DNA from: Lentibacter algarum
GTDB taxonomy: Bacteria > Pseudomonadota > Alphaproteobacteria > Rhodobacterales > Rhodobacteraceae
Assembly: GCF_018860975.1 (NCBI RefSeq)
Contig: NZ_JAHKQI010000002.1
Span: 310,001-374,000 of the forward strand
DNA length: 64,000 bases
Direction: 5' to 3'
Below are positions 27,210 to 46,993 of this stretch, one piece after another. The number at the start of each line of letters is the position of its first letter. The stretch's first letter is position 1. The translations under genes were made by a program, and so were the position numbers. The notes below the pieces were generated by a model. That model saw nothing but the letters and a program-made list of their open reading frames with translations, was not told the origin of the DNA and did no database searches.

Positions 27210-27212
27210 CGT

Positions 27213-29440: not shown

Positions 29441-30115
29441 ATGAAAGTTGACGCATTGGCCCTTCAAAGCATCCGCCCAGAACGTCGCCGTCTCGCCGAT
29501 GAGGTGTACGACCAGCTGATCAAAGCGATCCTAGCGAATGAAATTACGTCTGATGATGTGCTGGTTCAGGAAAAATTGGCCTCCGAGCTGCAGATCAGCA
29601 GAACACCCGTGCGCGAAGCGTTGATGCGAATGGAGCGTGAGGGCGTTCTGGAGGTCTCACATCGGGGCAGTTTCCGATTGTACCGGATGACGCAGAAAGA
29701 AGTGCATGAGCTTTATCAGGCGCGTGCCGCGATCGAGGGGCAGGCTGCACGGATTTTGGCCGCCAATCACACCGACGAGTTGATTGCCGATTTGCGTCTT
29801 TTCATTGAGCAAGAAGAAGATATGCAAAGCACGACAGTGCAGGACTATTTTCACGCAAACCGGAACATCCACAGACGGTTTGTGGAGTTGGCGAACAACC
29901 GCTTTCTGCTGGAAATGTTTGATATGATCTGGGGGAAGGCGATGGCGTTTCAGTTGTTTTCGACAATTGAAAGCGTCGATCTGAAAAAGTCGCTGGGCGA
30001 TCACATAGCGCTCGTAGATGTCATCGCGACAGGTGACAGAACGGCCACGCTTGAGGCGTTTACCCAGCATATTCAGGACGGCTTCGACCTCCAGATTGAG
30101 AGTCTAGGAGCTTAG
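29441..30115 (+). CDS. GntR-family (FCD subgroup) transcriptional regulator
   Basis: 224 residues. The winged helix-turn-helix spans about residues 10-75 (LADEVYDQLIKAIL; LASELQISRTPVREALMRME). An all-helical FCD ligand domain follows, with metal-binding-type residues (Asp/His in DYFHANRNIHRRFVELANN, and a later His in GDHIALVDVI). FCD regulators usually recognise short palindromes centred on GTATAC-like sequence. Four such sites occur in the next 13 kb (30202, 34025, 35579, 42379), so this is the likely regulator of the whole microcompartment locus, with an amine or its product as effector. Confidence 0.88.
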   Translation: MKVDALALQSIRPERRRLADEVYDQLIKAILANEITSDDVLVQEKLASELQISRTPVREALMRMEREGVLEVSHRGSFRLYRMTQKEVHELYQARAAIEGQAARILAANHTDELIADLRLFIEQEEDMQSTTVQDYFHANRNIHRRFVELANNRFLLEMFDMIWGKAMAFQLFSTIESVDLKKSLGDHIALVDVIATGDRTATLEAFTQHIQDGFDLQIESLGA

Positions 30116-30201
30116 CCTCCTTAAAGGCTCCGCACCTTATCTTCTATCCTCGTTTCAAATATCCGCGCGGGCGGCGGTGTTTTTTCTTGCGTCGCTCTGT
30201 T

Positions 30202-30215
30202 TACTGTATACAGTA
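30202..30215. promoter_or_regulatory. GntR operator candidate 1 (before glxB-like gene)
   Basis: TACTGTATACAGTA is a perfect 14-base palindrome, followed by a further GTATAC (30213-30218). It lies 22 bases before the start codon and just before the AGGAGGA ribosome site, a repressor-type position. Confidence 0.75.
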
Positions 30216-30236
30216 TACGAAACAGGAGGACATCTT

Positions 30237-31181
30237 ATGTGCGGAATCGCTGGCCGAATAATGCAGGCCCCCGGAAAGGTCGGGAGAGACCTTGTAAGCC
30301 TTATGGAGGCACAAGAGCATCGCGGGGCGGATAGCACCGGATTTGCCATCTACACGGACCCGTTGGATACTGGTTACAAGCTGCGTGGCATGGGGTTTGA
30401 CCAAACCAAACTGGACGCGGATCTGGCTGACTTCACGCATGTTTTGCGCGATCATGGTGCTGATTTGCTGGGCGATCCCCAGATCGTGCGCGGGGCCGAG
30501 GGGCACTATTGCTTCCGTATGGAGATGTCTGACCCCAAGGACCTGACCGCATGGACCAAAGACGCCGATACGCTGGCCAAACGTATTGAGGTTCAGTCGT
30601 GCGGACGCTCTCTTGAGATCATCAAAGATACTGGCTCTGCCGCTGAGGTGGCCGACAAACACGGTGTGCGCGATATCATCGGTACACACGGTCTGGGCCA
30701 TGCGCGCCTTGCAACCGAGAGTGCGGTTTTCCCCAACGCCAGCCACCCATTCTGGGCGCGCCCCTTCTCGGACGTGGCGATTGTGCACAACGGCCAGATC
30801 ACCGACTACTACACCCAGCGCGAGCGGCTTCAGCGTCAGGGCTACCAGTTCCTGACCGAAAACGATTCCGAGCTGATTGCGGTTTGGGTCTCTGACCAAA
30901 TCAAGCAGGGGTTGAGTATGCAGCAAGCCCTGACCAAGTCGATCAAGTCGATCGATGGCGTGTTCACCTTTATGATTGCTCGCCCCGACGGGATTGGCTT
31001 CGCTAAGGACCGCTTTGCGATGAAGCCGCTGGTCGTCATTGACCAGAACGGCGATCTGGCCGCGGCGACCGAAGAGCAAGCCGTGCGGCGCGTCTTCTCG
31101 GATGAATGCGACGTGATTAACCACGATGGCCCGTCGCTGACTGGCATTTGGGGCATCGGCAACCGGAGCATGGCAGCATGA
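30237..31181 (+). CDS. glxB: Class II glutamine amidotransferase domain protein (GlxB / MgsA-like)
   Basis: 314 residues from ATG at 30237 (AGGAGGA 6-7 bases upstream). Cys2 of MCGIAGRI becomes the catalytic N-terminal nucleophile after Met removal. Other class II marks are QEHRGADSTGFAIY, GHARLATES, VHNGQITDYY and NDSELIAVW. It corresponds to the glutaminase part of glutamate synthase split off as a separate protein, as in rhizobial glxB and N-methylglutamate synthase subunit A. It is the first of four overlapping genes under operator 1. Expected role: release of ammonia, or glutamyl handling, for the GlxD-like subunit. Confidence 0.88.
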   Translation: MCGIAGRIMQAPGKVGRDLVSLMEAQEHRGADSTGFAIYTDPLDTGYKLRGMGFDQTKLDADLADFTHVLRDHGADLLGDPQIVRGAEGHYCFRMEMSDPKDLTAWTKDADTLAKRIEVQSCGRSLEIIKDTGSAAEVADKHGVRDIIGTHGLGHARLATESAVFPNASHPFWARPFSDVAIVHNGQITDYYTQRERLQRQGYQFLTENDSELIAVWVSDQIKQGLSMQQALTKSIKSIDGVFTFMIARPDGIGFAKDRFAMKPLVVIDQNGDLAAATEEQAVRRVFSDECDVINHDGPSLTGIWGIGNRSMAA

Positions 31182-31870
31182 GCGAGATCATCATTGACGC
31201 AGGCGAGCGTCACATTCGTGCGATCAACCAGGACATTCAGGCTGCTTGCCTGAAGGGTGGCCCGATTCGAGTGACCAACACATTATCGCGGCATAATCTC
31301 GGGGTCGGTCTGCCTGATGGTGCTGACATCACGTTTGAAGGCAGCGTTGGTTACTATTGCGGCGGGTTGAATACTGGCGCGCGCGTTCAGATTGAGCGCA
31401 ACGCAGGCTGGGCTGTGGGCGAGGGCATGGACGGCGGGCATATTACGGTCAATGGCTACGCTGGCATGTCCGTGGGGGCCGCCATGATTGATGGCACCAT
31501 CCACGTTAAAGGCGATACCGGTCCGCGCTGCGGCGTGGCCATGAAGGGCGGTAACATCGTGGTCGAGGGCAAGATCGGCTACCAATCCGGCTTTATGGCC
31601 CATTCTGGCAAGATCATCGCCCTAGGCGGCGGAGGCGAAAGCTGTGCCGATGCGCTTTGGCAAGGTGAAGTCTGGGTCGCAGGCGATGTCGACAGTTACG
31701 GCGTCGATGTCAAAGTTGTGGAACCCACCGCAGAAGAGGTCGCCGAAGTGGACGCGATCCTTGATCCATTGGGGCTGGTCGACAGCTCTCGTAATTGGCG
31801 CAAATTGGTCTCTGGCCAGCGTCTTTGGTATTTTGAAAGCAGGGATGCAAGCGCATGGCTGATGATATGA
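31178..31870 (+). CDS. glxC: GXGXG-motif domain protein (GlxC / MgsB-like)
   Basis: 230 residues from ATG at 31178, overlapping the glxB stop by 4 bases. It has the right-handed beta-helix of the glutamate synthase C-terminal domain, with repeated Gly-rich turns (GGHITVNGYAGMSVGAAM, GPRCGVAMKGGNIVVEGKIG, YQSGFMAHSGKIIALGGG). In glutamate synthase this domain links the glutaminase and FMN domains; here it is a separate subunit, as in rhizobial GlxC and N-methylglutamate synthase. Confidence 0.88.
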   Translation: MSEIIIDAGERHIRAINQDIQAACLKGGPIRVTNTLSRHNLGVGLPDGADITFEGSVGYYCGGLNTGARVQIERNAGWAVGEGMDGGHITVNGYAGMSVGAAMIDGTIHVKGDTGPRCGVAMKGGNIVVEGKIGYQSGFMAHSGKIIALGGGGESCADALWQGEVWVAGDVDSYGVDVKVVEPTAEEVAEVDAILDPLGLVDSSRNWRKLVSGQRLWYFESRDASAWLMI

Positions 31871-33294
31871 CAAACAAAAACGCGCCCGCCGCACCGTATG
31901 AGTATCCGTTTGAGATGGCTGACGAGGCCGAGATCAAATACGGCGATGGTGCGATCGAGGGCCGCCCCGCAGGTGTGCCTGGCTCCTACGATCAAGGTGG
32001 ATCGACACGCTGGACGCCAGAAGCGATTTCTGAGGTTCACGCTCTGTCGCAACTGGGGCGCTATCAGGTGCGCGGCTATAACTCGTTCAACAAGCAGTTG
32101 CCGACGTTTGATGACTTGACGTTCGTGCCTGCCACGATGACGCGCCTGCCGCTGGAAGGCTACCGCGAAAGCTGTGACACGACGACTATTCTGGGCGGCG
32201 GTCGCGGGCTTGTGGAAAAGCCGCTTGAGCTGAAAATCCCGATCTACATCGCTTCCATGTCTTTTGGTGCGCTGTCGGCGTCTGCCAAAGCGTCGTTGGG
32301 CCATGGAGCCTCGAAGGTCGGCACGATGACCTGTACGGGCGAAGGTGGCATGTTGGAAGAGGAGCGTGAGGCCTCGCAGACCTTGCTCTATCAGATGTCG
32401 CCTGCGCGCTACGGCGTTGATCTGGACCATTTGCGCCGCGCCGATGCGCTGGAGATTGTTGTGGGGCAGGGCGCCAAGCCCGGCACAGGCGGTCTGCTCT
32501 TGGGCATGAAAGTATCCGAGCGTGTGTCCAAGATGCGGACCTTGCCACAAGGCGTGGATCAGCGCTCGACCATCCGCCACCCTGATTTCCTTGGGGCCGA
32601 TGATTTGTCGGTGAAAATCGAGGAACTGCGGATCGCAACGAACTACCAAGTGCCGATCTTTATCAAGATGGGGGCGACGCGACCGCGCTTTGATGTGGCG
32701 GTGGCGGCCAAAGCGGGCGCAGATGTGATCGTGGTGGACGGCGCCGAAGGCGGCACGGGTGCATCGCCAGAGCTCCTGCTGAATCACACAGGCATCCCCA
32801 CCATGAGCGCCATTCGCGCGGCCCGCGAAAGCCTTGATGAATGCGGCATGACAGGCAAAGTGTCTCTTGTCGCGGCGGGCGGTATCCGCACTGGTGTTGA
32901 TGCTGCGAAATGTATCGCCCTTGGTGCAGATGCGGTGATGATCGGCAATGCGGCGATGATGTCGCTGGGTTGTAATTCGCCTCGCTACCTTGAGGATTAC
33001 GCCGCTTTGGGCACCTCGCCTGGGGCCTGTCACCACTGTCACACTGGCCGCTGCCCTGTCGGTGTGGCTACCCAAGATCCTGAGCTTGAGGCGCGGATGA
33101 ACCCGGCGGCGGGTGCCGAACGTGTCGCGCGGTATCTGACCGCGATGACGATGGAGATCACAGCATTGGCCAAGGCCTGTGGCAAATCGTCGGTCCACAA
33201 TCTTGAGACCGAGGATCTGCGCGCTCTATCCTTCCAAGCCTCTGCGTTCACCGGCGTAAAAATGGCCGGCATTGATCGCGCGTTTGACTGGTGA
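31855..33294 (+). CDS. glxD: FMN-binding glutamate-synthase-like protein (GlxD / MgsC-like)
   Basis: 479 residues; the gene overlaps glxC by 16 bases. It holds the FMN TIM-barrel of glutamate synthase (IASMSFGALSASAKASLGHG; VDGAEGGTGASPELL; SLVAAGGIRTGVDAAK) and the Fe-S cluster motif CHHCHTGRCPVG at about residues 391-402. With GlxB and GlxC it forms a complete N-methylglutamate-synthase-like complex. Such complexes make an N-alkylglutamate from glutamate and an amine, or act as alternative glutamate synthases. Which one applies here is not decided by sequence. Confidence 0.9.
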   Translation: MADDMTNKNAPAAPYEYPFEMADEAEIKYGDGAIEGRPAGVPGSYDQGGSTRWTPEAISEVHALSQLGRYQVRGYNSFNKQLPTFDDLTFVPATMTRLPLEGYRESCDTTTILGGGRGLVEKPLELKIPIYIASMSFGALSASAKASLGHGASKVGTMTCTGEGGMLEEEREASQTLLYQMSPARYGVDLDHLRRADALEIVVGQGAKPGTGGLLLGMKVSERVSKMRTLPQGVDQRSTIRHPDFLGADDLSVKIEELRIATNYQVPIFIKMGATRPRFDVAVAAKAGADVIVVDGAEGGTGASPELLLNHTGIPTMSAIRAARESLDECGMTGKVSLVAAGGIRTGVDAAKCIALGADAVMIGNAAMMSLGCNSPRYLEDYAALGTSPGACHHCHTGRCPVGVATQDPELEARMNPAAGAERVARYLTAMTMEITALAKACGKSSVHNLETEDLRALSFQASAFTGVKMAGIDRAFDW

Positions 33295-33974
33295 GGATTG
33301 CTATCCTCGACTGTGCCGACCTCAAATCGGCAGGGCTTGAGAGGCACGGTTCTGTGGGGCGGTTGGTACAAAACTGGATCGCCCCACATTTGCCTGCTGA
33401 CACCGCTTTCGAGCGAATAGACATAGCGCAGGGTGCAGAGTTTCCGCAAGTTGCGGACTACGACGGCTTCATACTGCCTGGCTCGGAATATGGCGTGTAC
33501 GACAATCCGCCCTGGATGGCCGAACTGATAGATATGCTTTTACGGATCAGATCGGCGAGGGTGCCATTGCTTGGCATTTGTTTCGGGCATCAAATGATGG
33601 CCCATACGTTTGGCGGAGAAGCGGCCAAGGCCGATCTGGGCATGTGCGTCGGGCCGCGTTGTTGGACGGTTGAAGGCACGACGTTTTACGCGCAGGTCCT
33701 GCATCAGGATCAGGTGAGCAAAGTGCCCCCCGAGGCACGATTGATTGGTGGCGCAGAATACTGCAAAAATGGGGTGATAGAATACGATTTCCCAGCGCTT
33801 TCCATGCAATTCCATCCTGAATATACATCGCAGTTTATGATAGATGCGGTCGAAGTTCTGGAGGGAACGGCCCTTGACACACAGACAGCCGCCACCGCGC
33901 GGCAGACCCTTCAGCGAACGTTGCACACGGATGTCTTCGTCAAGAAGGCAGCACGGCTCTTCCTGCGCGGATAG
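33291..33974 (+). CDS. Class I glutamine amidotransferase-like protein
   Basis: 227 residues from GTG at 33291, overlapping glxD by 4 bases (GTGA). The catalytic triad is intact: Cys97 in LLGICFGHQ, His175 and Glu177 in SMQFHPEYT. The family (GATase_1, peptidase C26-like) includes gamma-glutamyl hydrolases such as PuuD. Beside a PuuA-like ligase and an FAD oxidase, a gamma-glutamyl-amide hydrolase is a sensible reading, though a GMP-synthase-like stand-alone glutaminase cannot be excluded. Last gene of the first block. Confidence 0.85.
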   Translation: MRIAILDCADLKSAGLERHGSVGRLVQNWIAPHLPADTAFERIDIAQGAEFPQVADYDGFILPGSEYGVYDNPPWMAELIDMLLRIRSARVPLLGICFGHQMMAHTFGGEAAKADLGMCVGPRCWTVEGTTFYAQVLHQDQVSKVPPEARLIGGAEYCKNGVIEYDFPALSMQFHPEYTSQFMIDAVEVLEGTALDTQTAATARQTLQRTLHTDVFVKKAARLFLRG

Positions 33975-34024
33975 GTTGCCCGCTCTTTGATTCATGTCAA
34001 AGCAGCGAAGCCCCTCACGCGGTA

Positions 34025-34036
34025 TACTGAATACAG
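34025..34036. promoter_or_regulatory. GntR operator candidate 2 (before the DUF6455 gene)
   Basis: TACTGAATACAG differs from the core of the other sites by one base. GTATAC also occurs just upstream (34022-34027). It stands 22 bases before the start codon at 34059, the same spacing as site 1. Confidence 0.55.
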
Positions 34037-34058
34037 AAAGTTCAGTGGAGGAATTGTG

Positions 34059-34403
34059 ATGTCGATTTTATCAAGCTTGAAGACCTATCTCGCACGATAT
34101 GGAGCAGCGGCACAGCCCGACGGATTTGTCCCGATGGACCTTGGCCTGACGCGGGCTGAATTCAATACACTGAAACACAGCCGCGCAAACATGGTTGATC
34201 AAATCGAAGCCATGAGCGGGCGTTTTGGCGCTTCAATGGATGATATTAACGCGAATCGCTGGACGCAGGTCGATGTGTCACTGGTCTGCGCTGACTGTAA
34301 AAAGGCGCGAGCATGCCAACGGTATCTCGACGGCAAAGGGCATTTCGAAATCAGTGAATGCCCTAACGCAGAGACATTCACCGAGATCGCCCAAAGCGCA
34401 TGA
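34059..34403 (+). CDS. DUF6455-family small Cys-rich protein
   Basis: 114 residues from ATG at 34059 (GGAGGA 7 bases upstream). Four cysteines, C77, C80, C86 and C101, form a C-x2-C-x5-C-x14-C pattern suited to binding a metal or Fe-S cluster. The N-terminus is not a signal peptide. Its own operator-like site and its place between the amidotransferase and oxidase genes tie it to the locus, perhaps as an electron carrier or maturation factor. That role is a guess. Confidence 0.75.
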   Translation: MSILSSLKTYLARYGAAAQPDGFVPMDLGLTRAEFNTLKHSRANMVDQIEAMSGRFGASMDDINANRWTQVDVSLVCADCKKARACQRYLDGKGHFEISECPNAETFTEIAQSA

Positions 34404-35543
34404 TCAACGCCCCGATGGGCTTTCGCGCGGGCTGAGCTTGCGGCGGGGGCCGATCTTGAAACGGTCGGCCGTGCCGTATTCACGCAGCGCAACACCAGCG
34501 GCAAAATCGCCAAAGACGGGTGCGTGTTTGAACAAATGGCCTGAACAGCCACCTGCAAACAGAACGTTATTATGCTCCGGATGCCAGTCCAGCACAAAAT
34601 GAGTGTCGGGCGTCAAGATGATCTGGTTGAATTTGGAATCGACAACTTTTTGCCCGGCCAGACCTGGCAGGCGGCGACGAACATAGGCCTCTGTCCGGTT
34701 GATCATTTCCTTTTTGACCAACCGCGCCTCGTTGTCCAAGTCAATCTTGTCGGGAATCACCACGGCGGCCTTGACGCCTGACCCTTCGGAGGAGGGGATG
34801 CCGAACGACCCTTGACCGTGATCGATCCAGCAGGGCATTTTTGCCATGTCATAGGTGTCCGACCCTTCGGGCGTCGAGGTGTAGAGCACGTTGATGCCGA
34901 CAATCTGGCTGATCGGTTTGATGGTGCGGGGGAACTGATCGGCCATCCACGCGCCTGTCGCCATGATGATCACATCCGCCTCAAGCGGTTTGCCGTCCAG
35001 CATCGGACGCTCGGACGTATCGGTGGTCACTGCCCCGCGCGTCACCACGCCACCCGCCTGTTTGAACAGTTTAATTCCCGCCAACACACAGCGATGCGCC
35101 ATGAGCAATCCTGCCTCAGGCTCAAAAAGCGCATAGGCGATGTCGTCGGTTTTAAACTGCTGGAAGCGGCTTTGAACGTCTGCAGGCGTGAACCTATAGT
35201 AGGGCACGCCGACTTCATCGAAGGTTTGTGATGTGGCGTCTTCCCAATCGCAATGGCCTGCGGTGGCAAGGATAAGCGCGCCACATTCATACATCAGGTT
35301 TTCTCCCGCTTGGGCCTGAAGCTCGAGCCAGCGTTGGCGCGATTCGCGTGCCCAGCGCGTGTAGAATGCATCCCGCCCCGAAATCGCGCGGATCACACGA
35401 TTATAGTCGCTCGAGGCAGCACGCGCATGGCCAGGCTCCCATTTATCAATCAAGGTGACCTGACAGCCCCGCCGTTGGAGCGACAATGCGGTCATAGTGC
35501 CTGTTATGCCGGCCCCTACGATTGTGATGCGTGTTTTTGTCAT
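34404..35543 (-). CDS. FAD-dependent amine oxidoreductase (DAO family; PuuB / sarcosine-oxidase-like)
   Basis: 379 residues with the FAD-binding motif IVGAGITGTMTALSLQRRG at residues 8-26 and the DAO C-terminal part (TPDTHFVLDWHPEHNNVLFA, then GGCSGHLFKHAPVFGD), in which the CSGH tract resembles the flavin region of monomeric sarcosine oxidase-type enzymes. AAGGA precedes the ATG. It is divergent from the glutamine-synthetase-like operon, with operator 3 in the 88-base gap. Expected reaction: oxidation of a secondary amine such as an N-alkylglutamate or gamma-glutamylamine, giving an aldehyde that the compartment would handle. Confidence 0.87.
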   Translation of the reverse strand: MTKTRITIVGAGITGTMTALSLQRRGCQVTLIDKWEPGHARAASSDYNRVIRAISGRDAFYTRWARESRQRWLELQAQAGENLMYECGALILATAGHCDWEDATSQTFDEVGVPYYRFTPADVQSRFQQFKTDDIAYALFEPEAGLLMAHRCVLAGIKLFKQAGGVVTRGAVTTDTSERPMLDGKPLEADVIIMATGAWMADQFPRTIKPISQIVGINVLYTSTPEGSDTYDMAKMPCWIDHGQGSFGIPSSEGSGVKAAVVIPDKIDLDNEARLVKKEMINRTEAYVRRRLPGLAGQKVVDSKFNQIILTPDTHFVLDWHPEHNNVLFAGGCSGHLFKHAPVFGDFAAGVALREYGTADRFKIGPRRKLSPRESPSGR

Positions 35544-35578
35544 AAAATTTCCTTGCCAGCGATGTGTTCTTGTGCATA

Positions 35579-35588
35579 CTGTATACAG
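35579..35588. promoter_or_regulatory. GntR operator candidate 3 (shared divergent promoter)
   Basis: CTGTATACAG, a perfect 10-base palindrome within ATACTGTATACAGAATACA. It sits in the 88-base gap between the FAD oxidoreductase gene and the glutamine-synthetase-like gene, so one site could control both transcription units. Confidence 0.72.
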
Positions 35589-35631
35589 AATACATTAAGC
35601 TGACAAGGCAGACGATACCGGGGAGGGTACA

Positions 35632-36927
35632 GTGTCGAAACAGGATTTCTCACTTCCAGAGGGCACGCACACGGTCGTTCTTGGCCTTGGCGATCTGAAC
35701 GGAATCATGCGTGGAAAGCGCATTCCAGCAAGCCATTGGGATACGATTTGCAAAGAGGGTAACGCGCTTTCGATTGCTCTGCTAGCGCTCGATATGACTT
35801 GCGATGTCTGGGACACGCCTTATGTCAATTTCGACAACGGCTACCCCGATATGCACATGATGCCCTACACCAAGCCCGTGGCCCTGCCGTGGGAGCCGGG
35901 GGTGGCTATGTGTTTCGCCCGCGCCGTTGGGGGTGATCATAAACCTGTACCGCTTGACCCGCGTCTGGCGCTTGAGCGTCAGGTAAAGCGTGCCGCTGAC
36001 ATGGGCATCACCGTTCAGGTTGGCACCGAGCTGGAATTCTATCTTCTTGACCCCGAAACGAACCTGCCGCGCGACAAAGGAATCAATGTCTACGGCCTCG
36101 ACCGCGCTGCCGCGATGGAGCATGTGATCGGGCCCATCCGCACTATGATCAACGAAGCGGGCATCCCGATTGAGCAATCCAACCCCGAATATGCCGCAGG
36201 GCAGGTTGAGGTAAACGTGCGCTACGACGAAGCGCTGCTCTCGGCAGATCGCCTTGTGATGTTCCGCACGATGGTCAAGCAACTGGCCCAGACGCAGGGC
36301 TACAAAGCCACCTTTATGGCCAAGCCGTTCATTGCGGAATCGGGTAGCGGTTTTCATTGTCACTATTCGCTTTGGAAGGATGGTAAGAACATCTTTGCCA
36401 CCGACGGTAAGCTGAACGAGACAGGCAAGCATTTTGTGGCTGGTCTTCAGGGCCGCATCGCGGAGACCGCGATTTGTGGTAGCATGACTGTGAACGGCTA
36501 TCGCCGTCGTCAGCCCTATACGTTCTGCCCGACGAATGCGTCGTGGGGGTATGACAACCGCACGGTTGCCTTGCGTGTGATCGAAGGGTCGGACAGTGCC
36601 GTACGTGTTGAGAAACGCGATGCAGGCGCCGATTGTAATCCCTATCTGTTGCTGGCCGCTGATATTGCGGCGGGCCTTGACGGGATCGAGGGCAAAATGC
36701 AGCCCTCTGAACCCACCATGGGCAACGCCTATGAAGAGGCCGACATTCCGCCGATCCCCACTGATCTGGGCACTGCTGTCGCCTTGGCGCGCGAGTCTGC
36801 GTGGCTCAAGGACCTGCTGGGCGACCATCTGCACGAGATCGTTTGCCAGCAATCCGAGCGTGAGCTTGAGTTCTTTGCGAACCAGGTGACCGAAGTGGAA
36901 ATACAACGTTATCTGGATGCGTTCTGA
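35632..36927 (+). CDS. Glutamine-synthetase-family ligase (PuuA / gamma-glutamyl-amine synthetase-like)
   Basis: 431 residues from GTG at 35632 (GGGAGG 5 bases upstream). Glutamine synthetase catalytic-domain motifs are present: GTELEFYLLDPE, QVEVNVRYDEALLSADR, GSGFHCHYSLW and VEKRDAGADCNPYLLLAADI. The early DLNGIMRGKRIP segment and the replacement of the normal RxPxxSCNPY by a GADCNPY form are shared with gamma-glutamylputrescine synthetase-type ligases rather than nitrogen-assimilating GlnA. It heads the operon that encodes the shell proteins (its stop overlaps the BMC-P start), so ligation of glutamate to an amine is probably the entry step of this pathway. Confidence 0.88.
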   Translation: MSKQDFSLPEGTHTVVLGLGDLNGIMRGKRIPASHWDTICKEGNALSIALLALDMTCDVWDTPYVNFDNGYPDMHMMPYTKPVALPWEPGVAMCFARAVGGDHKPVPLDPRLALERQVKRAADMGITVQVGTELEFYLLDPETNLPRDKGINVYGLDRAAAMEHVIGPIRTMINEAGIPIEQSNPEYAAGQVEVNVRYDEALLSADRLVMFRTMVKQLAQTQGYKATFMAKPFIAESGSGFHCHYSLWKDGKNIFATDGKLNETGKHFVAGLQGRIAETAICGSMTVNGYRRRQPYTFCPTNASWGYDNRTVALRVIEGSDSAVRVEKRDAGADCNPYLLLAADIAAGLDGIEGKMQPSEPTMGNAYEEADIPPIPTDLGTAVALARESAWLKDLLGDHLHEIVCQQSERELEFFANQVTEVEIQRYLDAF

Positions 36928-37199
36928 TGCGGTTGGGTAAAGTCATTGGCACAGTGACCGCAACCGTGAAGGACCCGCAAATTGCGGCCAAACCTTTGTT
37001 GGTCGTCGATGTGATCACCGCAGCGGGCAAAGTGTCCGAGCCGTCTGTCGTGGCGGTGGATACTGTCGGCGCGGGGGTGGGCGACCGCGTGATAATCACG
37101 CAAGGCAGTGCTGCTCGCATCCCGCAAGGCACGGCAACATCACCGATTGATGCAACAATTATCGCCGTTGTGGACACAGTCCAGACGGCCAAAACCTGA
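36927..37199 (+). CDS. Microcompartment shell vertex protein (BMC-P, EutN/CcmL family)
   Basis: 90 residues: [60 protein letters not shown], then [14 protein letters not shown]. This is the complete EutN/CcmL fold at its usual length. Five copies cap each vertex of the icosahedral shell. The start codon overlaps the stop of the ligase gene by one base. Only one BMC-P gene is present, where many metabolosome loci carry several. Confidence 0.95.
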
Positions 37200-37219
37200 A
37201 AATCCTGAAGGAGAAGACA

Positions 37220-37528
37220 ATGGCGAAACCAGCAGCAGGCCAAGCGGCCCTTGGTATGATTGAAACACGCGGGCTTGTGGCCTCGATTGAGGGTGCGGAT
37301 GCGATGGCAAAAGCGGCCAACGTCCAGATTGTTGGCCAAACCAAAGCAGGCGGGGGTCTGATCACCACTCTCGTGCGCGGTGAAGTCGGCGCGGTGAAAG
37401 CAGCCACCGATGCGGGTGCCACAGCGGCGCATAAAGTAGGCGAGGTTGTCTCGGTCCACGTGATCGCTCGCCCCCATGACGAGCTTGAAGCCATTCTTGA
37501 CGCCCTTGGTGCAGGCAGCGCTGACTGA
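37220..37528 (+). CDS. Microcompartment shell hexamer protein (BMC-H)
   Basis: 102 residues of a canonical single BMC domain: [79 protein letters not shown]. The pore loop reads KAGGGL where many homologues have K(I/V)GSGL. GGAGAAG precedes the ATG, predicting strong translation as expected for the main facet tile. It is the only BMC-H in the window. Confidence 0.96.
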
Positions 37529-40098: not shown

Positions 40099-40101
40099 CC
40101 C

Positions 40102-40725: not shown

Positions 40726-41909
40726 TGAGCACCAAGCGCGTCATAGGGGCCGAAGCGCTGGAGGATGCGCGCCAAAGGGGCCGCAACCAGTTCGAGGTTC
40801 TGCCCGGTGATATCGTCACCGCCATGGCGCGTGAGACGGCAGCCCGCATTGGCATCCAGCTTGTGGACGGGCCGATTGAAAAACCAAGCGCCCCTGTCAC
40901 GGATGGCGCGACTGCTTTGCGGCGTGGCTTATACCGGCGTTCTCCCCGCTGGGTCACGCCGCAGGCGTCAAAATCTACGCGACCTCGCCGGTTGCGCAAA
41001 CTGGCGCTTGTGGGGGCAGGGGGCGTGGGCGCCAATATCGCGCATCTGGCCGCGAACCGCGATATGGCTGATGACATCACGCTGATTGATATCGCACCGG
41101 GTGTGGCCGAAGCTATGGCGCTTGATCTGAACCATGCCAGCGGCATCACCGGCTCGCGGGCGCGCTGTGTTGGCAGCACGGATTTGGCGATGGTCGCAGG
41201 TGCGGAAGTGATTGTCGTCACCGCAGGGCGCGCGCGCGGTCCGGGTATGACGCGCGCTGATCTGATCGACGTTAATGCGCGCGTGATGCGCAGCACTGCC
41301 GAAGTGATCAAGACCCAAGCGCCCGACGCTATTGTGATCGTCGTCACCAACCCGCTGGATGAAATGACGGTCGAGATGCTGCGCGCCACAGGCTTTCCGC
41401 GCGAACGGGTTTTGGGCATGGCGGGTACCTTGGACAGTTCACGCTTTCGCAACGCTTTGGCGATGGCGGCGGGGGTGACCCCCGCGGATGTGACCGCGTT
41501 CACTTTGGGCAGCCACGGCGACGAGATGGCGCCCATCCCCAGCCACGCCCGCATCAAGGGCCGCGCACTTTCGGCGTTCCTGAGCGAAGAACAGATTGCG
41601 GCCTGCGTCAAAGACGCGATTACAGGCGGCGGACAGGTTGTTGCATTGAAAAAAACAGGGTCAGCGACGGTTGCTCCTGCACATTCATCCATCGAATTGA
41701 TTGACCACATTCGCGGGGCGGCATTGGGGTCTGTGCCTGTGTCCGTCATGCTCGAGGGGGAGTTCGGGATCGACGGTGTCGTTCTGGGCGTTCCAGCGCA
41801 TCTTGGCGCAAAAGGTCTGGTTGCGATTGACGAAATCCGCCTGACCCAGACGGAGCAGGCGGCCCTGAATACTGCCGCTGAGGCGATCCGCACCCGGCTT
41901 GGGCTATGA
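40725..41909 (+). CDS. Malate/lactate dehydrogenase homologue with BMC cargo-like N-terminal extension
   Basis: 394 residues. Residues about 92-394 are an LDH/MDH domain with intact chemistry: Rossmann GAGGVGANIA (98-107), Arg171 in TAGRARGPGMTR at the malate-specificity position, VTNPLDE, Asp237 and Arg240 in GTLDSSR, His264 in LGSHGDE. Residues 1-50 (VIGAEALEDARQRGRNQFEV, LPGDIVTAMARETAARIGI) are foreign to MDH but resemble the short conserved segment found on several microcompartment-associated proteins (EutQ-like, PGxIVTxxAR pattern). A proline/arginine-rich linker (about 51-91) joins them. It could recycle NADH to NAD+ inside the shell using oxaloacetate. Confidence 0.88.
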   Translation: MSTKRVIGAEALEDARQRGRNQFEVLPGDIVTAMARETAARIGIQLVDGPIEKPSAPVTDGATALRRGLYRRSPRWVTPQASKSTRPRRLRKLALVGAGGVGANIAHLAANRDMADDITLIDIAPGVAEAMALDLNHASGITGSRARCVGSTDLAMVAGAEVIVVTAGRARGPGMTRADLIDVNARVMRSTAEVIKTQAPDAIVIVVTNPLDEMTVEMLRATGFPRERVLGMAGTLDSSRFRNALAMAAGVTPADVTAFTLGSHGDEMAPIPSHARIKGRALSAFLSEEQIAACVKDAITGGGQVVALKKTGSATVAPAHSSIELIDHIRGAALGSVPVSVMLEGEFGIDGVVLGVPAHLGAKGLVAIDEIRLTQTEQAALNTAAEAIRTRLGL

Positions 41910-42313
41910 GCGTGCGTGTCTACCAATCGGGTGGGCGGTTTGAAGAAGCTGCCAGCTATGCCCGCGCAAAACGCGTAGGCCCGTTCGTCTATATCGCAGG
42001 CACCACCGCCATCGAGCCTACGGGCAAAATCCACGCGCCCTATGACGTCTATGCGCAGTCAACCTATATTCTTGGCCGTATTGAAGAGTTCCTAAAGGAA
42101 GTCGGTGCCGAGCGCCGCCATGTCATGCGCAGCCGGTGCTACCTGCCAGACCTGTCGCAGGCGGCGGGCCTCGTCAAAGCGCATGGTGCGTTCTTTGCGG
42201 GAATCATGCCAGCTATGACAGCGGTAGAGGCCAAGCTGACCCAAGACGGTTTGATGGTAGAGATTGATGTGGATGCGATTGTGCATGACCCAACAGGTCA
42301 AATTTCGTTCTAG
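41906..42313 (+). CDS. RidA-family protein lacking the catalytic arginine
   Basis: 135 residues of the YjgF/YER057c/UK114 fold (VGPFVYIAGTTAIEPTGKIH; TYILGRIEEFLKEVGAERRH; MRSRCYLPDLSQ). In canonical RidA the C-terminal motif is PARS/T, with Arg holding the carboxylate of the enamine/imine. Here it reads PAMT with Met104, as in the Arg-lacking Rid subfamilies. It overlaps the malate-dehydrogenase-like gene by 4 bases and closes the shell operon. Possibly it acts on a non-amino-acid imine, or binds a ligand. Confidence 0.85.
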   Translation: MSVRVYQSGGRFEEAASYARAKRVGPFVYIAGTTAIEPTGKIHAPYDVYAQSTYILGRIEEFLKEVGAERRHVMRSRCYLPDLSQAAGLVKAHGAFFAGIMPAMTAVEAKLTQDGLMVEIDVDAIVHDPTGQISF

Positions 42314-42378
42314 CCGCTTCAAAAATCGGCTTTGCCTCAACAAAAACGTTGAAACGCGGGTCATTCAGTGTACGGTGT

Positions 42379-42390
42379 ACTGTATACAGT
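42379..42390. promoter_or_regulatory. GntR operator candidate 4 (before the importer genes)
   Basis: ACTGTATACAGT, a perfect 12-base palindrome, 40 bases before the start of the binding-protein gene and after the end of the shell operon. It links the importer to the same regulator. Confidence 0.75.
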
Positions 42391-42429
42391 CGACAAAAGA
42401 TGCGACGATCAACCACAGGGAGACGCTAA

Positions 42430-43704
42430 ATGATAAAAGTAACGGCAACATCCGCCTTGGCGATTATATGCGCCACGATGGCGGCGGCAGAGGTGAAGGT
42501 GGGCTTTATCGGCTCGCTGTCCTCGGACACAGGGCTGAGCACATTGCGCGGCGCGGAAATCGCGATCGAAGAGCTGAACGCGGCGGGCGGCATGAACGGC
42601 GAACAGATCGTAATGGTTACCGCCGATACGTCAGAGGATCCGACCGAAGGCGTCAAAGCCTATGAATATCTGGCGGAGACCGAGGAAGTTGATTTCATCA
42701 TCTCAGGCTCGATCGACGATGTGTCGCTGGCGTGGATGCCGCGTATGCAGGAATTCCAGATCCCGACGCTAGACACTTGGACCAGCTATATCGGCATCAT
42801 CGACATGGTTGTCGAAGACCCTGAAACGATGGCGCCCTACTTTATGAACATCGCCTCGGACGAGGCTTTGGCGACGCTCTATATCAACTTTGGCGCGGAT
42901 GTGCTGAAGGGGCAGATGGGCTGGGAAAGCACAGTCATTCTGGCCGAGGACACCGCCTTCGGTGAGGCGATCACCGGTCTGATCACCGACGCACTTGGCC
43001 CTGTTGCGGGGATCAAGACGACCGAGATCATAAAATATGACGTAAACACGGTCGATTTTGCGCCGCTGTTCAGTCGCGCGCAGGAAACGGGCGCCGACTT
43101 TATCTATCAGGTTAGTACGGTAAATTCTCAGGTTGTCTCGTCGCAATATGTGAAGCTGCAAGTGCCGATGCCCATGACCGGCGTGAACGTTGGCGCGTTG
43201 GGGCTTGAGTATTGGGAAGACACGGGCGGTGCCGGTGGCGGTATCTCGACCCTGTCGCCTGTGCCGTCGGTTGGGTTCGAGCTTGACCCCGTCAGCCAAT
43301 CCTTCGTCGACACCTATCAGGCGAAATACACCAGCCGTCCGGTTATGCCGCACTTTAACGGGTTCAACGCCTATCACGGCCTCAAGCAAGCGATGGCTGC
43401 GGCCGAAACTGCTGGTGGCTTTGGCGATGTAAAGGCCTGGTCTGCCGAAATGAAAAAGCAGGACCTTGTGCTTGAAAAAGACGGCAAGCTTTGGCTGCGC
43501 TACGGCTTTTGGGGCGATGATGAAGTCGAGGAAGTTACAGGGCGAACATATCCGCACAATGCCCGGTTTGACCTGACGTCACCTTACGAGGATGCGCAGC
43601 CGTCGATGGTTGTGGTCCAGTGGAAAGAAGACGGGTCCGTCGGTGTGGTCTATCCGTTCGAATACGCAACGACCGAGTTCACTATCCCTAGCTGGGTCAA
43701 GTAA
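42430..43704 (+). CDS. ABC transporter substrate-binding protein of the microcompartment locus
   Basis: 424 residues. A short signal peptide (MIKVTATSALAIICATMAAA) is followed by a Peripla_BP_6 fold (VKVGFIGSLSSDTGLSTLRG; AEIAIEELNAAGG). A run of acidic residues and aromatic side chains (MPRMQEFQIPTLDTWTSYIG; YWEDTGG) line the expected cleft, which would suit a cationic amine; this is suggestive only. First gene of a complete five-gene importer under operator 4. Confidence 0.88.
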   Translation: MIKVTATSALAIICATMAAAEVKVGFIGSLSSDTGLSTLRGAEIAIEELNAAGGMNGEQIVMVTADTSEDPTEGVKAYEYLAETEEVDFIISGSIDDVSLAWMPRMQEFQIPTLDTWTSYIGIIDMVVEDPETMAPYFMNIASDEALATLYINFGADVLKGQMGWESTVILAEDTAFGEAITGLITDALGPVAGIKTTEIIKYDVNTVDFAPLFSRAQETGADFIYQVSTVNSQVVSSQYVKLQVPMPMTGVNVGALGLEYWEDTGGAGGGISTLSPVPSVGFELDPVSQSFVDTYQAKYTSRPVMPHFNGFNAYHGLKQAMAAAETAGGFGDVKAWSAEMKKQDLVLEKDGKLWLRYGFWGDDEVEEVTGRTYPHNARFDLTSPYEDAQPSMVVVQWKEDGSVGVVYPFEYATTEFTIPSWVK

Positions 43705-43715
43705 CCCACTCCTTC

Positions 43716-43742
43716 GTCGCAGCGCACATCCTGCGCTGCGAC
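43716..43742 (+). promoter_or_regulatory. Intercistronic hairpin between binding-protein and permease genes
   Basis: A perfect 11-base stem (GTCGCAGCGCA and TGCGCTGCGAC) encloses the loop CATCC, with no T-run after it. It is the third hairpin in the window in the same position relative to a binding-protein gene. Confidence 0.68.
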
Positions 43743-43765
43743 ACCCCAATCAAGGCAAATTCCCC

Positions 43766-44620
43766 ATGCTCCAGATCATTATCCAAGGCCTTCTGCTGAG
43801 CGGGCTCTACGCCCTTATCGCGGTCGGCTTCACCCTTATCTTCAGCGTTGGGCGTGTGCTGAACCTTGCCTATGGTGCCTATCTGATGATCGGCGGCTAC
43901 GCGTTTTTCTTCTTTTCCCAACAGCTTGGGCTGCCTATTCTCCTGGGGGTTATTCTGGCTGGTGTGTTGGGCTGTCTGGCGGGGCTTTTGAAATACCGTC
44001 TTTTGGTGATCCCGCTCAAGGGCGACCATGTCGCAATCGAGATTTCGACGCTTATTCTGGCGGTTGTTATACAAGCGGGCATCGTGCTGCTGTTTGGCGA
44101 CAGCCCCAAAGTTCTGCTGCCCATCGTTCCGGGTGTGACGCAGATCGCGGGCGCTTCGGTGACCTTTAACATCCTGACGGCCACGCTGGTCAGTTGGGCC
44201 ATCCTGATCAGCCTCTATCTATTCATCAAGAAAACCCATCTGGGCCGCGCCATGCAGGCGGTATCGATGGATAAAAAGGGGGCCGCCATTTCGGGTGTGA
44301 ACCCGGATCACATTAATATGTTGACATGGGGGATCAGCGGTACGCTGGGCGCTGTCGCGGGTGTGTTCTTTGCCAGCTATACACAGCTGTCGCCGTCGAT
44401 GTGGGTTGCTCCGCTGATCATTGCCGTTGCTGTCGTCATCGTAGGTGGCATCGGGTCCATCATCGGCACATTGATCGTGGCACATATCATCGGTTTTATG
44501 GAGGTCATCGCCGTGGCTGAAATCGCACCCGAGCTGCGCGGCGTCTTTACAATGCTGTTGATCATCGCAGTGCTGATCATCCGCCCGCAGGGCCTGTTTG
44601 GGCGGGAGGAAATTCAATGA
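43766..44620 (+). CDS. Branched-chain-type ABC transporter permease (LivH-like)
   Basis: 284 residues from ATG at 43766, where the protein begins at once with the first LivH helix (MLQIIIQGLLLSGLYALIAV) and the family signature FSVGRVLNLAYGAYLMIGG. The C-terminal GGIGSIIGTLIVAHIIG matches LivH. It overlaps the LivM-like gene by 4 bases. Confidence 0.9.
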   Translation: MLQIIIQGLLLSGLYALIAVGFTLIFSVGRVLNLAYGAYLMIGGYAFFFFSQQLGLPILLGVILAGVLGCLAGLLKYRLLVIPLKGDHVAIEISTLILAVVIQAGIVLLFGDSPKVLLPIVPGVTQIAGASVTFNILTATLVSWAILISLYLFIKKTHLGRAMQAVSMDKKGAAISGVNPDHINMLTWGISGTLGAVAGVFFASYTQLSPSMWVAPLIIAVAVVIVGGIGSIIGTLIVAHIIGFMEVIAVAEIAPELRGVFTMLLIIAVLIIRPQGLFGREEIQ

Positions 44621-45564
44621 ACATTCGGTGGTATCACTTTGCCCTTTGGGCCGCGTTCATGGCCGTTATGTTTGCCTTGCCAGAGTTCGTCTCGCGCGGC
44701 ACACTGCGCACCGTCATCTTTGCCAACTTCCTCGCGATCTTTGCCATCTCTTGGGACGTTCTTTCAGGTCGCACCGGCTACATCAGCTTTGGCCATCCGT
44801 TCCTCATCGGCATTGGCGCCTATACCACCGCCATCCTGACCAAGCGGTTTGACGTCGCCATCGAGGCGTCCATCCCCATTGCCGTTATCGTGACGATGAT
44901 CGCGGGCTTTATCGTCTTTCTGCCCGCCTTGCGCATCAAAGGCAGCTATTTTGCACTGGTCACGCTCGCGTTCATGGAGCTGATGTACCAGTTGGTACAA
45001 GTCATCCGGCCCGACCTGACGGGTGGCACGCGCGGCATTTCCGGCATCCAAGGGATCACACGGGGCGCGGTGAACGGATACTATTTGTCCCTGACGCTGT
45101 TGCTGGTGGTGGCCGTCACAGTTTGGCTGGTGATGCGCACACGGGTGGGAACCGCGCTGAGTGCGATTGGCATGAACGAAGAATCCGTGCGCGGATCAGG
45201 CCTTGATACTACGAAGCTGAAATTGTTCGCCTTCCTGTTCAGCGCACTTATCGCGGGTCTGGGTGGGGCGTTCTACGCCCATTATGTTGGTGCCATCGCA
45301 CCGCGTGCACTGTTTGATATCAACTTTTTGTTTACCATTATTGTTGCGGCCTTGATCGGTGGGGCAGCCACGACGGCGGGGCCGATCATCGGTGCGTTCT
45401 TCCTGACCTTCCTGCTGGAATACCTGCGCCCCTATTTGCCCGGTGCAGAGCGGTACTTTATCTATGGCGGGGTCGCGCTGCTTTTGTACATGTACCAACC
45501 CAAGGGGATCATCGCCTTGCTTGAGACGATGAAAGACCGGATCATCAGGAGGTCTTCGACATGA
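44617..45564 (+). CDS. Branched-chain-type ABC transporter permease (LivM-like)
   Basis: 315 residues with LivM marks: SGRTGYISFGHPFLIGIGAY, RIKGSYFALVTLAFMELMYQ, and GGAATTAGPIIGAFFLT near the C-terminus. It overlaps its neighbours on both sides by 4 bases, so the importer genes are translationally coupled. Confidence 0.9.
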   Translation: MNIRWYHFALWAAFMAVMFALPEFVSRGTLRTVIFANFLAIFAISWDVLSGRTGYISFGHPFLIGIGAYTTAILTKRFDVAIEASIPIAVIVTMIAGFIVFLPALRIKGSYFALVTLAFMELMYQLVQVIRPDLTGGTRGISGIQGITRGAVNGYYLSLTLLLVVAVTVWLVMRTRVGTALSAIGMNEESVRGSGLDTTKLKLFAFLFSALIAGLGGAFYAHYVGAIAPRALFDINFLFTIIVAALIGGAATTAGPIIGAFFLTFLLEYLRPYLPGAERYFIYGGVALLLYMYQPKGIIALLETMKDRIIRRSST

Positions 45565-46292
45565 GCAGTCCACTAGTTATATCGAACCTGCGCAAGACCT
45601 TTGGCGGTCTGGTGGCTACAAATGATGTGTCGTTCAGTGTGGCGCAGGGGGAATCCCTTGCGTTGATCGGGCCGAACGGGGCAGGCAAAACCACAATCTT
45701 CAGTCAGATCATGGGAGAGCTGCGCCAGACCGCTGGCACGATCACCCTGTTTGGCAATGAAATCTCGAAGCTCTCGACACCTGCGCGCATCCGCGAAGGT
45801 GTAAGCCGGACCTATCAGGTGCCGCGCCCCTTTGGCGAAATGACTGTCGCAGAAAACATTCGTGTGGGGCTTATGCCTGATAACATCTGGCACATGATCA
45901 CGCGCAGCGGTAACGCTGACCGCGAGTTGGAACTGGCGCTGAGCGTCGGGTTTTCGGAAGATGACCTCAAGCGCACCCCCTCGGAGCTGTCGATGGGTGA
46001 TCTGCGCAAGCTGGAAATGGCGCGCACCATGGCCACCGGCCCGCGCGTGATGTTACTGGACGAGGTCTTTGCGGGTCTGACCGTGGGCGAGATCGCACAA
46101 ATCGCTGCGCTGATCCAGCAGATGCGCAAGGACGGCATGACCTTTCTGATCGTCAGCCACGACCTTAAGGCGCTCGAACCACTTGTGGACCGCGCCATCG
46201 CAATTGAGCAGGGCACGCATATCGCCGAGGGCCCCTTTGCCCAAGTTATGGCTGATGACGCAGTCCGCGCTTCTTATCTGGGAGCGGCATGA
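45561..46292 (+). CDS. ABC transporter ATP-binding protein (LivG-like)
   Basis: 243 residues: Walker A GPNGAGKTT, Walker B VMLLDEVF, switch His in IVSHDLKALE. The signature region reads SMGDLRKLEMAR instead of LSGGQ, as in many LivG proteins. Start and stop overlap the neighbouring genes by 4 bases each. Confidence 0.91.
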   Translation: MSSPLVISNLRKTFGGLVATNDVSFSVAQGESLALIGPNGAGKTTIFSQIMGELRQTAGTITLFGNEISKLSTPARIREGVSRTYQVPRPFGEMTVAENIRVGLMPDNIWHMITRSGNADRELELALSVGFSEDDLKRTPSELSMGDLRKLEMARTMATGPRVMLLDEVFAGLTVGEIAQIAALIQQMRKDGMTFLIVSHDLKALEPLVDRAIAIEQGTHIAEGPFAQVMADDAVRASYLGAA

Positions 46293-46993
46293 TGGCGTTT
46301 TTATCAATCGAAAACCTCAACGCATTTTACGGCAAGGCGCAGGCCCTGCATGATGTGTCCCTGTCCTGCGAAAAAGGCGAGATCATCGCTGTTATCGGCG
46401 CCAATGGCGCGGGCAAATCAACGCTGCTCGATAGCATCATGGGGCTGACCAAAACGACGGGCACCATTTCGTTTGACGGAACCCCCCTGAATGGCGGCCC
46501 TGCTGCCGCTGTTGAACGGGGCATTGGCTATGGCCCTGAGCGGTTCAATCTGTTCCCCTACATGTCGGTCTATGACAACCTGATGGTTGGCGCGTTTACG
46601 GCGCGGAACGATATTGAGAAAAACCTTGCTGCCGTGTTCCGTCTGTTCCCGCGCCTTGAGGAACGCCAGGCGCAGGAAACCAGCACCCAGTCAGGCGGCG
46701 AGCGGCAGATGGTGTCGCTGGGCCGCGCGCTGATGACCTCACCACGTCTGCTCATCGTGGACGAGCCCACGATAGGTCTGGCCCCGAAAGTCTGCACCGA
46801 GATCGCAGCAGCCTTGCGCCGACTGCGCGATGACATGGGCCTGACGATCCTCATCACAGAGCAGAACGCAAACTTCGCCATGACGCTGGCAGAGCGGCTG
46901 TACGTTCTGGAAGCAGGTGCCGTGCGGGCAACCGGCACAGTGGACGAGTTGCGCGATGATCCGCGGCTGCTTGAGGCATATTTCGGGCACTGA
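46289..46993 (+). CDS. ABC transporter ATP-binding protein (LivF-like)
   Basis: 234 residues (or 233 from the second ATG at 46292): Walker A GANGAGKST, signature QSGGERQMVSLGRA, Walker B LLIVDEPTIG, and Gln in place of the switch His (ITEQNANF), as usual for LivF. It is the last gene of the importer and of the recognisable microcompartment locus. No clear intrinsic terminator follows. Confidence 0.91.
   Translation: MMAFLSIENLNAFYGKAQALHDVSLSCEKGEIIAVIGANGAGKSTLLDSIMGLTKTTGTISFDGTPLNGGPAAAVERGIGYGPERFNLFPYMSVYDNLMVGAFTARNDIEKNLAAVFRLFPRLEERQAQETSTQSGGERQMVSLGRALMTSPRLLIVDEPTIGLAPKVCTEIAAALRRLRDDMGLTILITEQNANFAMTLAERLYVLEAGAVRATGTVDELRDDPRLLEAYFGH

Follow-up and report, generated by a model that had tools for sequence, protein, structure and literature searches.

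A conserved microcompartment locus of Lentibacter algarum with a predicted amine-glutamylating front end

What purpose is served by a bacterial microcompartment (BMC) when the operon encoding its shell begins with a homologue of glutamine synthetase (GS)? This question is raised by positions 29441-46993 of a 64,000-nucleotide stretch of the Lentibacter algarum genome (contig NZ_JAHKQI010000002.1, positions 310,001 to 374,000), which in its full length is termed the window in the following. A sequence-only reading had described here an operon for BMC-P, BMC-H and BMC-T shell proteins that also encodes the GS-like protein, an acylating aldehyde dehydrogenase (AldDH), a protein with the fold of opine dehydrogenases (ODH), a malate dehydrogenase homologue (MDH) and a RidA-like protein, flanked by genes for GlxBCD, a class I amidotransferase, a flavin oxidase and an ATP-binding cassette (ABC) importer. 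A listing of open reading frames (ORFs) and scans with Pfam and NCBIfam models confirmed the presence of all these genes. The course of events that had been put forward, i.e. import of an amine, glutamylation, flavin-dependent oxidation and acyl-CoA formation in connection with a shell, is supported at the sequence level by the loss of the ammonium site in GS, the restriction of the oxidase to genomes with this BMC in a sample of the family, the association with GlxBCD and a common operator. We consider it fairly probable that the locus represents a regulon for the catabolism of a small primary amine by an N-alkylglutamate pathway terminating in a microcompartment.

The region is a conserved locus type and no chance neighbourhood. 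Genome contigs were scanned with patterns derived from a BMC-T alignment, and the best 80 of 84 relatives were taken. Judged by their names, they stem mostly from alpha- and gammaproteobacteria, two bins being named Acidimicrobiia, and carriers include Ruegeria profundi, Falsiruegeria mediterranea, Aliishimia ponticola and Hoeflea alexandrii. One locus, complete with GlxBCD, resides in the bin Candidatus Thioglobus sp. MED-G25 of the SUP05 clade (L105). The nine genes regarded as the core, namely those for oxidase, GS, BMC-P, BMC-H, ODH, AldDH, BMC-T, MDH and RidA, are present as ORFs in 68, 70, 70, 71, 74, 79, 80, 79 and 73 of the 80 loci, respectively, and the corresponding counts are 56 for the substrate-binding protein (SBP) of the importer, 41 for GlxD, 27 for the class I amidotransferase, 18 for the GntR protein and 16 for the DUF6455 protein. 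The complete core is found in 62/80 loci by ORFs and in 63/80 by a recount with tblastn. For 15 of the 17 incomplete loci, the fetched DNA ends before the place where the absent genes would be expected, and L106 and L111 are without RidA. From GS to RidA, the genes have the same order and strand in 61 of the 63 loci, the exceptions being L105, in which RidA lies elsewhere, and L109 with its overlong ORFs; oxidase and GS genes are divergent neighbours in 67/68 cases (exception L079).

Within the family, 10 of 149 genomes gave a BMC match and six of these, including that of the window, have the locus, while a single match in G112 stayed below the cut-off. Four family loci (G010, G029, G114 and again G014) are of another BMC type. 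This second type combines BMC-P and BMC-H with a pair of BMC-T and with an AldDH that has 33-38% identity to that of the window (L028, ~7957-11712; L029, ~8128-11919; L030, ~8014-12060; L031, ~8086-12081). Orthologues of ODH occur in 4/292 genomes of a sample of the order and in none of the plasmids. A search for additional recurring genes as clues to the substrate, which covered ORFs of at least 100 amino acids outside the matched genes and families shared by at least five of the 80 loci, returned one cluster of short ORFs only (5/80 loci).

The gene heading the shell operon (35632..36927; like all genes of the locus except the oxidase gene on the plus strand; PF00120, 2e-90) should encode an amine ligase, since the ammonium site is lost. 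In an alignment of the window protein with those from 68 of the 70 GS loci, i.e. those aligned over at least 85%, the residues of E. coli GlnA for metal and ATP, and most of those for glutamate, are unchanged in 69/69 rows; exceptions are Arg359, found in 68 with one gap, and Asn264, replaced by Ser in 68. On the other hand, all 69 have Phe in place of Glu327, and a gap stands at the Asp50 loop, as in PuuA. A function as glutamine synthetase was rejected on these residues, and the protein is a predicted amine:glutamate ligase. The closest solved structure is 5dm3, which we take to be the C. salexigens ligase from an ethanolamine cluster. Ammonium-site loss has been described for GmaS, with Ala48 and Trp300 in the text of PMC7948447, and loss of the same kind of residues is described for GlnA4 and PauA7 in PMC6529630.

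Two GS orthologues of 62-64% identity, L207 and L216 (Mesorhizobium loti pML2037), have no shell genes in the fetched stretch and a cytochrome P450 gene nearby; L216 has in addition a gene of the gamma-glutamyl-GABA hydrolase family and L207 genes for an amidase and a class I amidotransferase-like protein. Around other GS genes outside BMC loci, phosphate-transport and PhoU genes, HipA and histidinol dehydrogenase are encoded. These neighbours were considered as a substrate clue and discarded: P450, amidase or hydrolase genes lie near two of them, and no common substrate emerges. In a GS tree, members from BMC and non-BMC contexts do not separate; its forks are weak and the outgroup branches long, and no direction of transfer is therefore read from it.

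GlxBCD accompanies the locus with few exceptions and belongs to the system. In the window, glxB (30237..31181; GATase_6, 1e-16) encodes a class II amidotransferase subunit, glxC (31148..31870; PF01493, 7e-16) a GXGXG subunit and glxD (31855..33294; PF01645, 1e-97) a subunit with a flavin mononucleotide (FMN)-dependent glutamate-synthase domain. The nucleophilic Cys2 of GlxB is retained in 31 of 33 rows, the remaining two being gapped. GlxD orthologues are 73-94% identical, full-length paralogues at most 57%. A Glx gene lies within the fetched stretch in 42/80 loci (GlxD in 41). For the other 38, GlxD was found elsewhere in the genome in 25/25 of one set and 7/12 of another, L032 not being included, so that Glx genes accompany 74/80 loci. 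Two of the matches are partial, one of 120 residues at 73% and another, from a genome counted as lacking GlxD, of 36 residues at 64%. In the family, GlxD of at least 74% identity is present in 6/6 genomes with the locus and in 3/143 without it (G019, G064, G087), with a fragment in G069 (Fisher p 6e-9, kinship of the genomes uncorrected).

The flavin oxidase likewise belongs to the system. It is encoded on the minus strand (34404..35543) and is assigned to the family of flavin adenine dinucleotide-dependent monomeric sarcosine and N-methyltryptophan oxidases. Among up to 13 candidates scored per genome, orthologues (E up to 1e-60) were detected in 6/149 family genomes, exactly the six with this BMC. 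The protein aligns best with monomeric sarcosine oxidase, and Arg49, Arg52, Lys258 and Lys339 are found in 67/67 rows. Of the sarcosine oxidase positions invariant in these rows, Arg52 and Lys348 are presumably carboxylate-binding and Lys265 presumably oxygen-activating. The position of the covalent-flavin Cys is occupied by Asn in 51 and by Cys in 14 of the 67 rows. The best piece aligned with PuuB reached 22% over 86 columns (E 0.04), and the oxidase is thus not PuuB-like.

Importer, GlxBCD, oxidase and GS-BMC operon look like one regulon, because a common putative operator precedes the genes for import, glutamylation, nitrogen transfer, oxidation and shell. The palindrome ACTGTATACAG occurs at three intergenic sites, 5' of glxB (30202..30215, TACTGTATACAGTA), between the oxidase and GS genes (35577..35590) and 5' of the importer (42378..42391), none of them assigned to a strand. 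It was found by seeking letters common to these stretches, and counts in the window are therefore descriptive: the 12-mer TACTGTATACAG gave 10 strand matches with at most two mismatches versus 1.0 expected. Of these, seven fall on the three sites, a weaker site at 34025-34038 accounts for two and the last lies at 7249. The weaker copy, TACTGAATACAG, lies within the DUF6455 ORF as listed. In the 3.65-Mb genome, the exact 11-mer of the palindrome occurs at three places, all in the locus, and the reversed control gave 0 matches.

When 220 bases upstream of the genes were searched in the relatives with at most one mismatch, CTGTATACAG was found ahead of GS in 57/69, SBP in 37/56 and glxB in 12/21 cases, whereas internal genes yielded 1/73 (RidA), 0/79 (MDH), 0/75 (AldDH), 0/70 (BMC-H) and 0/70 (ODH); base-shuffled stretches give 0.2-1.3%. 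Remote glxBCD genes were fetched from 31 of 32 genomes, 28 with a readable glxB promoter, and 20 of these 28 have the site with at most one mismatch. It is also carried by all four BMC-less variants tested (L202, L208, L210, L211), in L202 and L208 5' of glxB, and an exact copy lies upstream of the SBP gene of L203. It is not present in the paralogous clusters L220, L222 and L223. The protein encoded at 29441..30115 (Pfam FCD 5e-22, GntR 1e-14) is a candidate regulator that would bind at the palindrome; of 28 fetched stretches with remote glxBCD that could be judged, 22 also contain a GntR relative. Joint induction of ligase, oxidase and shell genes, on which the sequence-only reading had made itself depend, finds a partial answer in this common operator.

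The products of the shell operon complete the picture. BMC-P (36927..37199; PF03319, 4e-26), BMC-H (37220..37528; PF00936, 3e-25) and the CcmP-like BMC-T (40102..40725) would form the shell, and no further PF00936 match exists elsewhere in the 11-contig genome. With AldDH (38719..40098), the locus encodes an aldehyde dehydrogenase of pfam00171, a feature by which metabolosome loci are recognized. AldDH belongs to the MIC1/EUT2 branch and is closest to the acetylating acetaldehyde type (TIGR02518, 500 bits, cut-off 620), with Cys250 in 77/77 rows. This type points to a short aldehyde and hence to ethylamine or a neighbour as the starting amine. Neither a phosphotransacylase nor an alcohol dehydrogenase was found by Pfam among the 20 locus ORFs, the rest of the genome not having been searched, and the locus is therefore of the incomplete-core, MIC-like kind.

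The ODH-fold protein (37553..38719) is the likeliest luminal protein, as it has the clearest encapsulation-peptide-like helix. Its N terminus, with Phe4 in 71/72 and Phe7 in 67 rows followed by a variable linker, is predicted to look like a typical encapsulation peptide: an AlphaFold model (mean confidence score, pLDDT, 89.3; 47 sequences) places a helix at residues 2-12, residues 12-21 with pLDDT <50 and then a Rossmann domain. The opine-dehydrogenase fold was confirmed. A His-Asp pair presumably provides catalysis in these enzymes, and the His of 1bg6 aligns to a gap, with Glu or Asp in the adjacent column in 71/72 rows and any His nearby in 8/72; other histidines are conserved, His115 in 86% and His127 in 93%. 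An opine dehydrogenase function was therefore rejected, and that name is not used for the function of the protein.

MDH (40725..41909) has its active-site His, Asp, Asn and three Arg in 75/75 rows; one of these arginines we assume to favour oxaloacetate. Its N-terminal extension of ~88 residues (40725-40990) is modelled as a small ordered alpha/beta piece and not as a simple peptide helix. A known domain was sought in it, and a 55-residue piece of the window protein gave no Pfam match. The MDH of the Methylibium locus discussed below has ~120 residues ahead of its Ldh domain, too. The last gene of the operon (41906..42313; PF01042, 2e-19) encodes the RidA-like protein.

The importer is of the LIV type and consists of SBP (42430..43704; PF13458, 1e-34), two permeases (43592..44620, an ORF as listed whose real start is probably more internal, and 44617..45564; both PF02653) and two ATPases (45561..46292 and 46289..46993; both PF00005). 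A class I amidotransferase (33291..33974; PF00117, 3e-16) and a DUF6455 protein (33987..34403; PF20056, 4e-4, below its cut-off) are regarded as accessory.

How might these components act together? Every reaction, its substrate and its location in the following are inferred, the scheme building on gene set, conservation, operator, active-site residues and peptide-like helix as read from the sequence. The substrate would be R-CH2-NH2, most likely a C2-C3 compound with ethylamine as first guess, and the importer would bring in either the amine itself or a compound that donates it. At the expense of ATP, GS would form gamma-glutamyl-NH-CH2R, and GlxBCD would hydrolyse this amide and move the amine to 2-oxoglutarate, yielding an N-alkylglutamate. 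GmaS and MgsABC carry out the equivalent steps for methylamine. The sarcosine-oxidase-like flavoenzyme would then oxidize the N-alkyl carbon, giving glutamate and R-CHO, possibly with help of the RidA-like protein in imine hydrolysis. R-CHO would pass to the shell, where AldDH would form R-CO-CoA with NAD+ and CoA, and MDH may re-oxidize NADH through reduction of oxaloacetate, so that a malate shuttle would replace the usual alcohol dehydrogenase. The ODH-fold protein would reside inside the shell. The sequence-only reading had allowed for a gamma-amide as well as an N-alkylglutamate, and the latter is now favoured. Somewhat more tentative, at slightly less than an even chance, is the larger proposal that this is new entry chemistry: a third GS-Glx branch beside GmaS-MgsABC and GlnT-GlxBCD that would make N-alkylglutamate from a non-methyl amine, combined with a MIC1-like core forming acyl-CoA, a malate/oxaloacetate shuttle across the shell and a luminal ODH-fold enzyme with altered active site.

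Versions without a shell also occur. In G064 (L202), genes for GntR, GlxBCD, GS (71%), RidA, an acyl-CoA ligase and a non-acylating aldehyde dehydrogenase precede another acyl-CoA ligase gene, a gene for an oxidase of the DAO family and those for two permeases 65-70% identical to those of the window. Thus, L202 has aldehyde dehydrogenase and acyl-CoA ligases where the window has shell and acylating enzyme. G069 (L211) combines GlxBCD, cut by the contig end, with GntR, acyl-CoA ligase, aldehyde dehydrogenase and DAO. Conversion of aldehyde to acid and on to acyl-CoA could stand in for the shell step in such versions.

A number of observations weigh against the N-alkylglutamate pathway as drawn. 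The oxidase of L202 is PuuB-like (32% over 401 residues), unlike that of the window, and the parallel is thus inexact; G087 (L210) has GntR, GlxBCD, DAO, RidA and an unscanned frame at the position of the aldehyde dehydrogenase gene, without a GS orthologue. Seven family genomes possess GS orthologues without this BMC, two of them in contexts with P450 and hydrolase or amidase genes, and nine non-BMC GS genes have no upstream operator with fewer than three mismatches. Since the loci are kin, common ancestry accounts for part of the operator's conservation. No remote GlxD was found in four of 37 genomes tested and only a fragment in one, completeness of the assemblies being unstated. The usual cargo of LIV-type importers is amino acids or amides. 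No targeting peptide is seen on the oxidase (379 residues versus 389 in sarcosine oxidase), so that the aldehyde would have to reach the shell from outside, and the absence of phosphotransacylase from the locus genes is a further point. The RidA-like protein has Met in the window, and Thr or Leu in 64/72 rows, at the site where the catalytic Arg is presumably expected. AldDH is without the C-terminal peptide of the two EUT2-type enzymes compared; a rule on the C-terminal encapsulation tail of AldDH is given in section 7 of PMC8217296.

The same genes can be read in other ways. If the ODH-fold protein were the signature enzyme, an NAD-dependent N-alkylglutamate dehydrogenase would free the aldehyde within the shell. 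Its encapsulation-peptide-like helix would fit, as would a fold family that presumably acts on such secondary amines. This overlaps with the pathway proposed above, yet we consider it unlikely, as no catalytic His stands at the usual place and the flavoenzyme, which in the family occurs only with this BMC, would have to serve another purpose. The LIV-type importer under the same operator would suit an imported N-substituted amino acid, opine or amide that is split by the oxidase, a member of an amino-acid oxidase family, or by the protein with opine-dehydrogenase fold; the shell would take up the aldehyde, and GS and GlxBCD would recycle the amine. That possibility appears rather improbable in view of the missing opine-dehydrogenase His and of an ATP-using ligase at the head of the shell operon, which suits the capture of a free amine better.

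In a Puu-type pathway, GS would glutamylate a diamine or amino-alcohol, the flavoenzyme would oxidize the free end with the gamma-glutamyl group still attached, the aldehyde would be acylated and the class I amidotransferase would free glutamate. Both GS and such an amidotransferase are present, and a BMC-less variant has a PuuB-like oxidase. The sarcosine-oxidase-like nature of the window's oxidase, which is not PuuB-like, and the occurrence of the amidotransferase in only 27/80 loci nonetheless weaken the case for a gamma-amide; Glx genes would be left without a role at 74/80 loci and AldDH is closest to the acetaldehyde type, which makes this pathway distinctly improbable. Plain ammonia assimilation, in which the oxidase or another enzyme frees NH3 and aldehyde and GS and GlxBCD act as glutamine synthetase/glutamate synthase (GS/GOGAT) pair, could invoke the superfamilies to which these proteins belong and the paralogous cluster L220, where a type III GS accompanies GlxBCD. 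It is very improbable given the exchange of Glu327 for Phe in every aligned GS, the gapped Asp50 loop and an oxidase that retains the positions we take to bind a carboxylate in amino-acid oxidases.

With respect to the surroundings, AldDH of the window was not found in six other genomes of the genus, and a tRNA-Lys gene lies at 50449-50524, 3.4 kb past the end of the locus, which may be a genomic island. Directly upstream, minus-strand genes for a flavin amine oxidoreductase, a ChrR-type cupin and a glutathione S-transferase (GST) occupy 26148-28756; nothing indicates membership of these genes in the conserved locus.

Many AldDH-bearing loci, MIC2-7 among them, are described in the text of Sutter et al. 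(PMC8217296) as lacking an obvious enzyme for production of the aldehyde. One widespread locus of such kind now gains a proposed aldehyde source and a candidate regulator with operator. If the N-alkylglutamate pathway proves true, amine glutamylation joins the chemistries that feed bacterial organelles, a malate shuttle becomes a candidate for regenerating the cofactors of a metabolosome, and small amines would have a sink in alpha- and gammaproteobacteria, of which many seem to be marine from their genus names. The named carrier strains make the proposal testable.

Which known systems does the locus resemble? The N-methylglutamate pathway consists of GmaS, MgsABC and MgdABCD. A GS-fold amine ligase without ammonium site and a three-subunit enzyme of GlxBCD/MgsABC type, the latter by homology only, are common to both, whereas the window has a single-chain sarcosine-oxidase-like enzyme instead of the four-subunit MgdABCD and a link to a shell. 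The window proteins share 27-28% (GS) and 50-52% (GlxD) identity with those of the paralogous GS-Glx clusters L222 and L223, of which L222, located near a trimethylamine N-oxide demethylase gene, is taken for the N-methylglutamate pathway. The Puu pathway of E. coli starts with a GS-like ligase exhibiting the same residue losses, but the oxidase of the window is not PuuB-like and its amidotransferase not PuuD-like. Ethanolamine gamma-glutamylation in Phaeobacter likewise employs a GS-like amine ligase that feeds dehydrogenases in a host of the Roseobacter group (PMC10132767); for this pathway, that text mentions two dehydrogenases, an amidohydrolase and a TRAP transporter but neither a shell nor GlxBCD. 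With the EUT2 ethanolamine BMC the locus shares an AldDH of the acetylating type (42-44% identity), while ethanolamine ammonia-lyase, adenosyltransferase, EutL and EutD are not among the window locus genes and its AldDH is without the C-terminal peptide.

Comparison with published BMC types, which the sequence-only reading had left to be made, divides the locus into a known part and another for which no description was found. Within the open-licence literature, catalogue supplements lying outside the search, no published description of the locus or of a metabolosome with such entry chemistry was found, although the type may well be catalogued under a MIC label without function (Sutter et al. 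2021, sections of which list MIC2-MIC7 and MUF2-3 without their gene content). Shell and AldDH core are of a known kind; the glutamylation front end appears undescribed. The core resembles MIC1, a metabolosome locus type to which the text of Axen et al. (2014, PMC4207490) assigns no function. Two plasmid loci, from Methylibium petroleiphilum RPME01 and Rhodococcus oxybenzonivorans pRB98, fit the MIC1 description of that article, whose main text does not name Methylibium. The MIC1 genes for an MreB-like protein, a phosphatase and a zinc alcohol dehydrogenase were not found by Pfam among the locus genes of the window, and the two plasmid loci have no operator before BMC-P. They contain EutJ between AldDH and BMC-T as well as a HAD hydrolase, an alcohol dehydrogenase and a pyruvate phosphate dikinase, where the window type instead has GS, oxidase, GlxBCD, ODH-fold protein and RidA. 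All three nevertheless share the order BMC-P, BMC-H, AldDH, BMC-T, malate dehydrogenase by which MIC1 is recognized, and identities to RPME01 and pRB98 amount to 52% and 49% for AldDH, 52% and 55% for BMC-T and 40% and 42% for MDH. In a tree whose root serves for drawing only, AldDH of the window type groups with both plasmid loci (98/96 support) and apart from EUT2. From this grouping and the common gene order, the locus of the window seems to be a MIC1-like core that carries a different front end.

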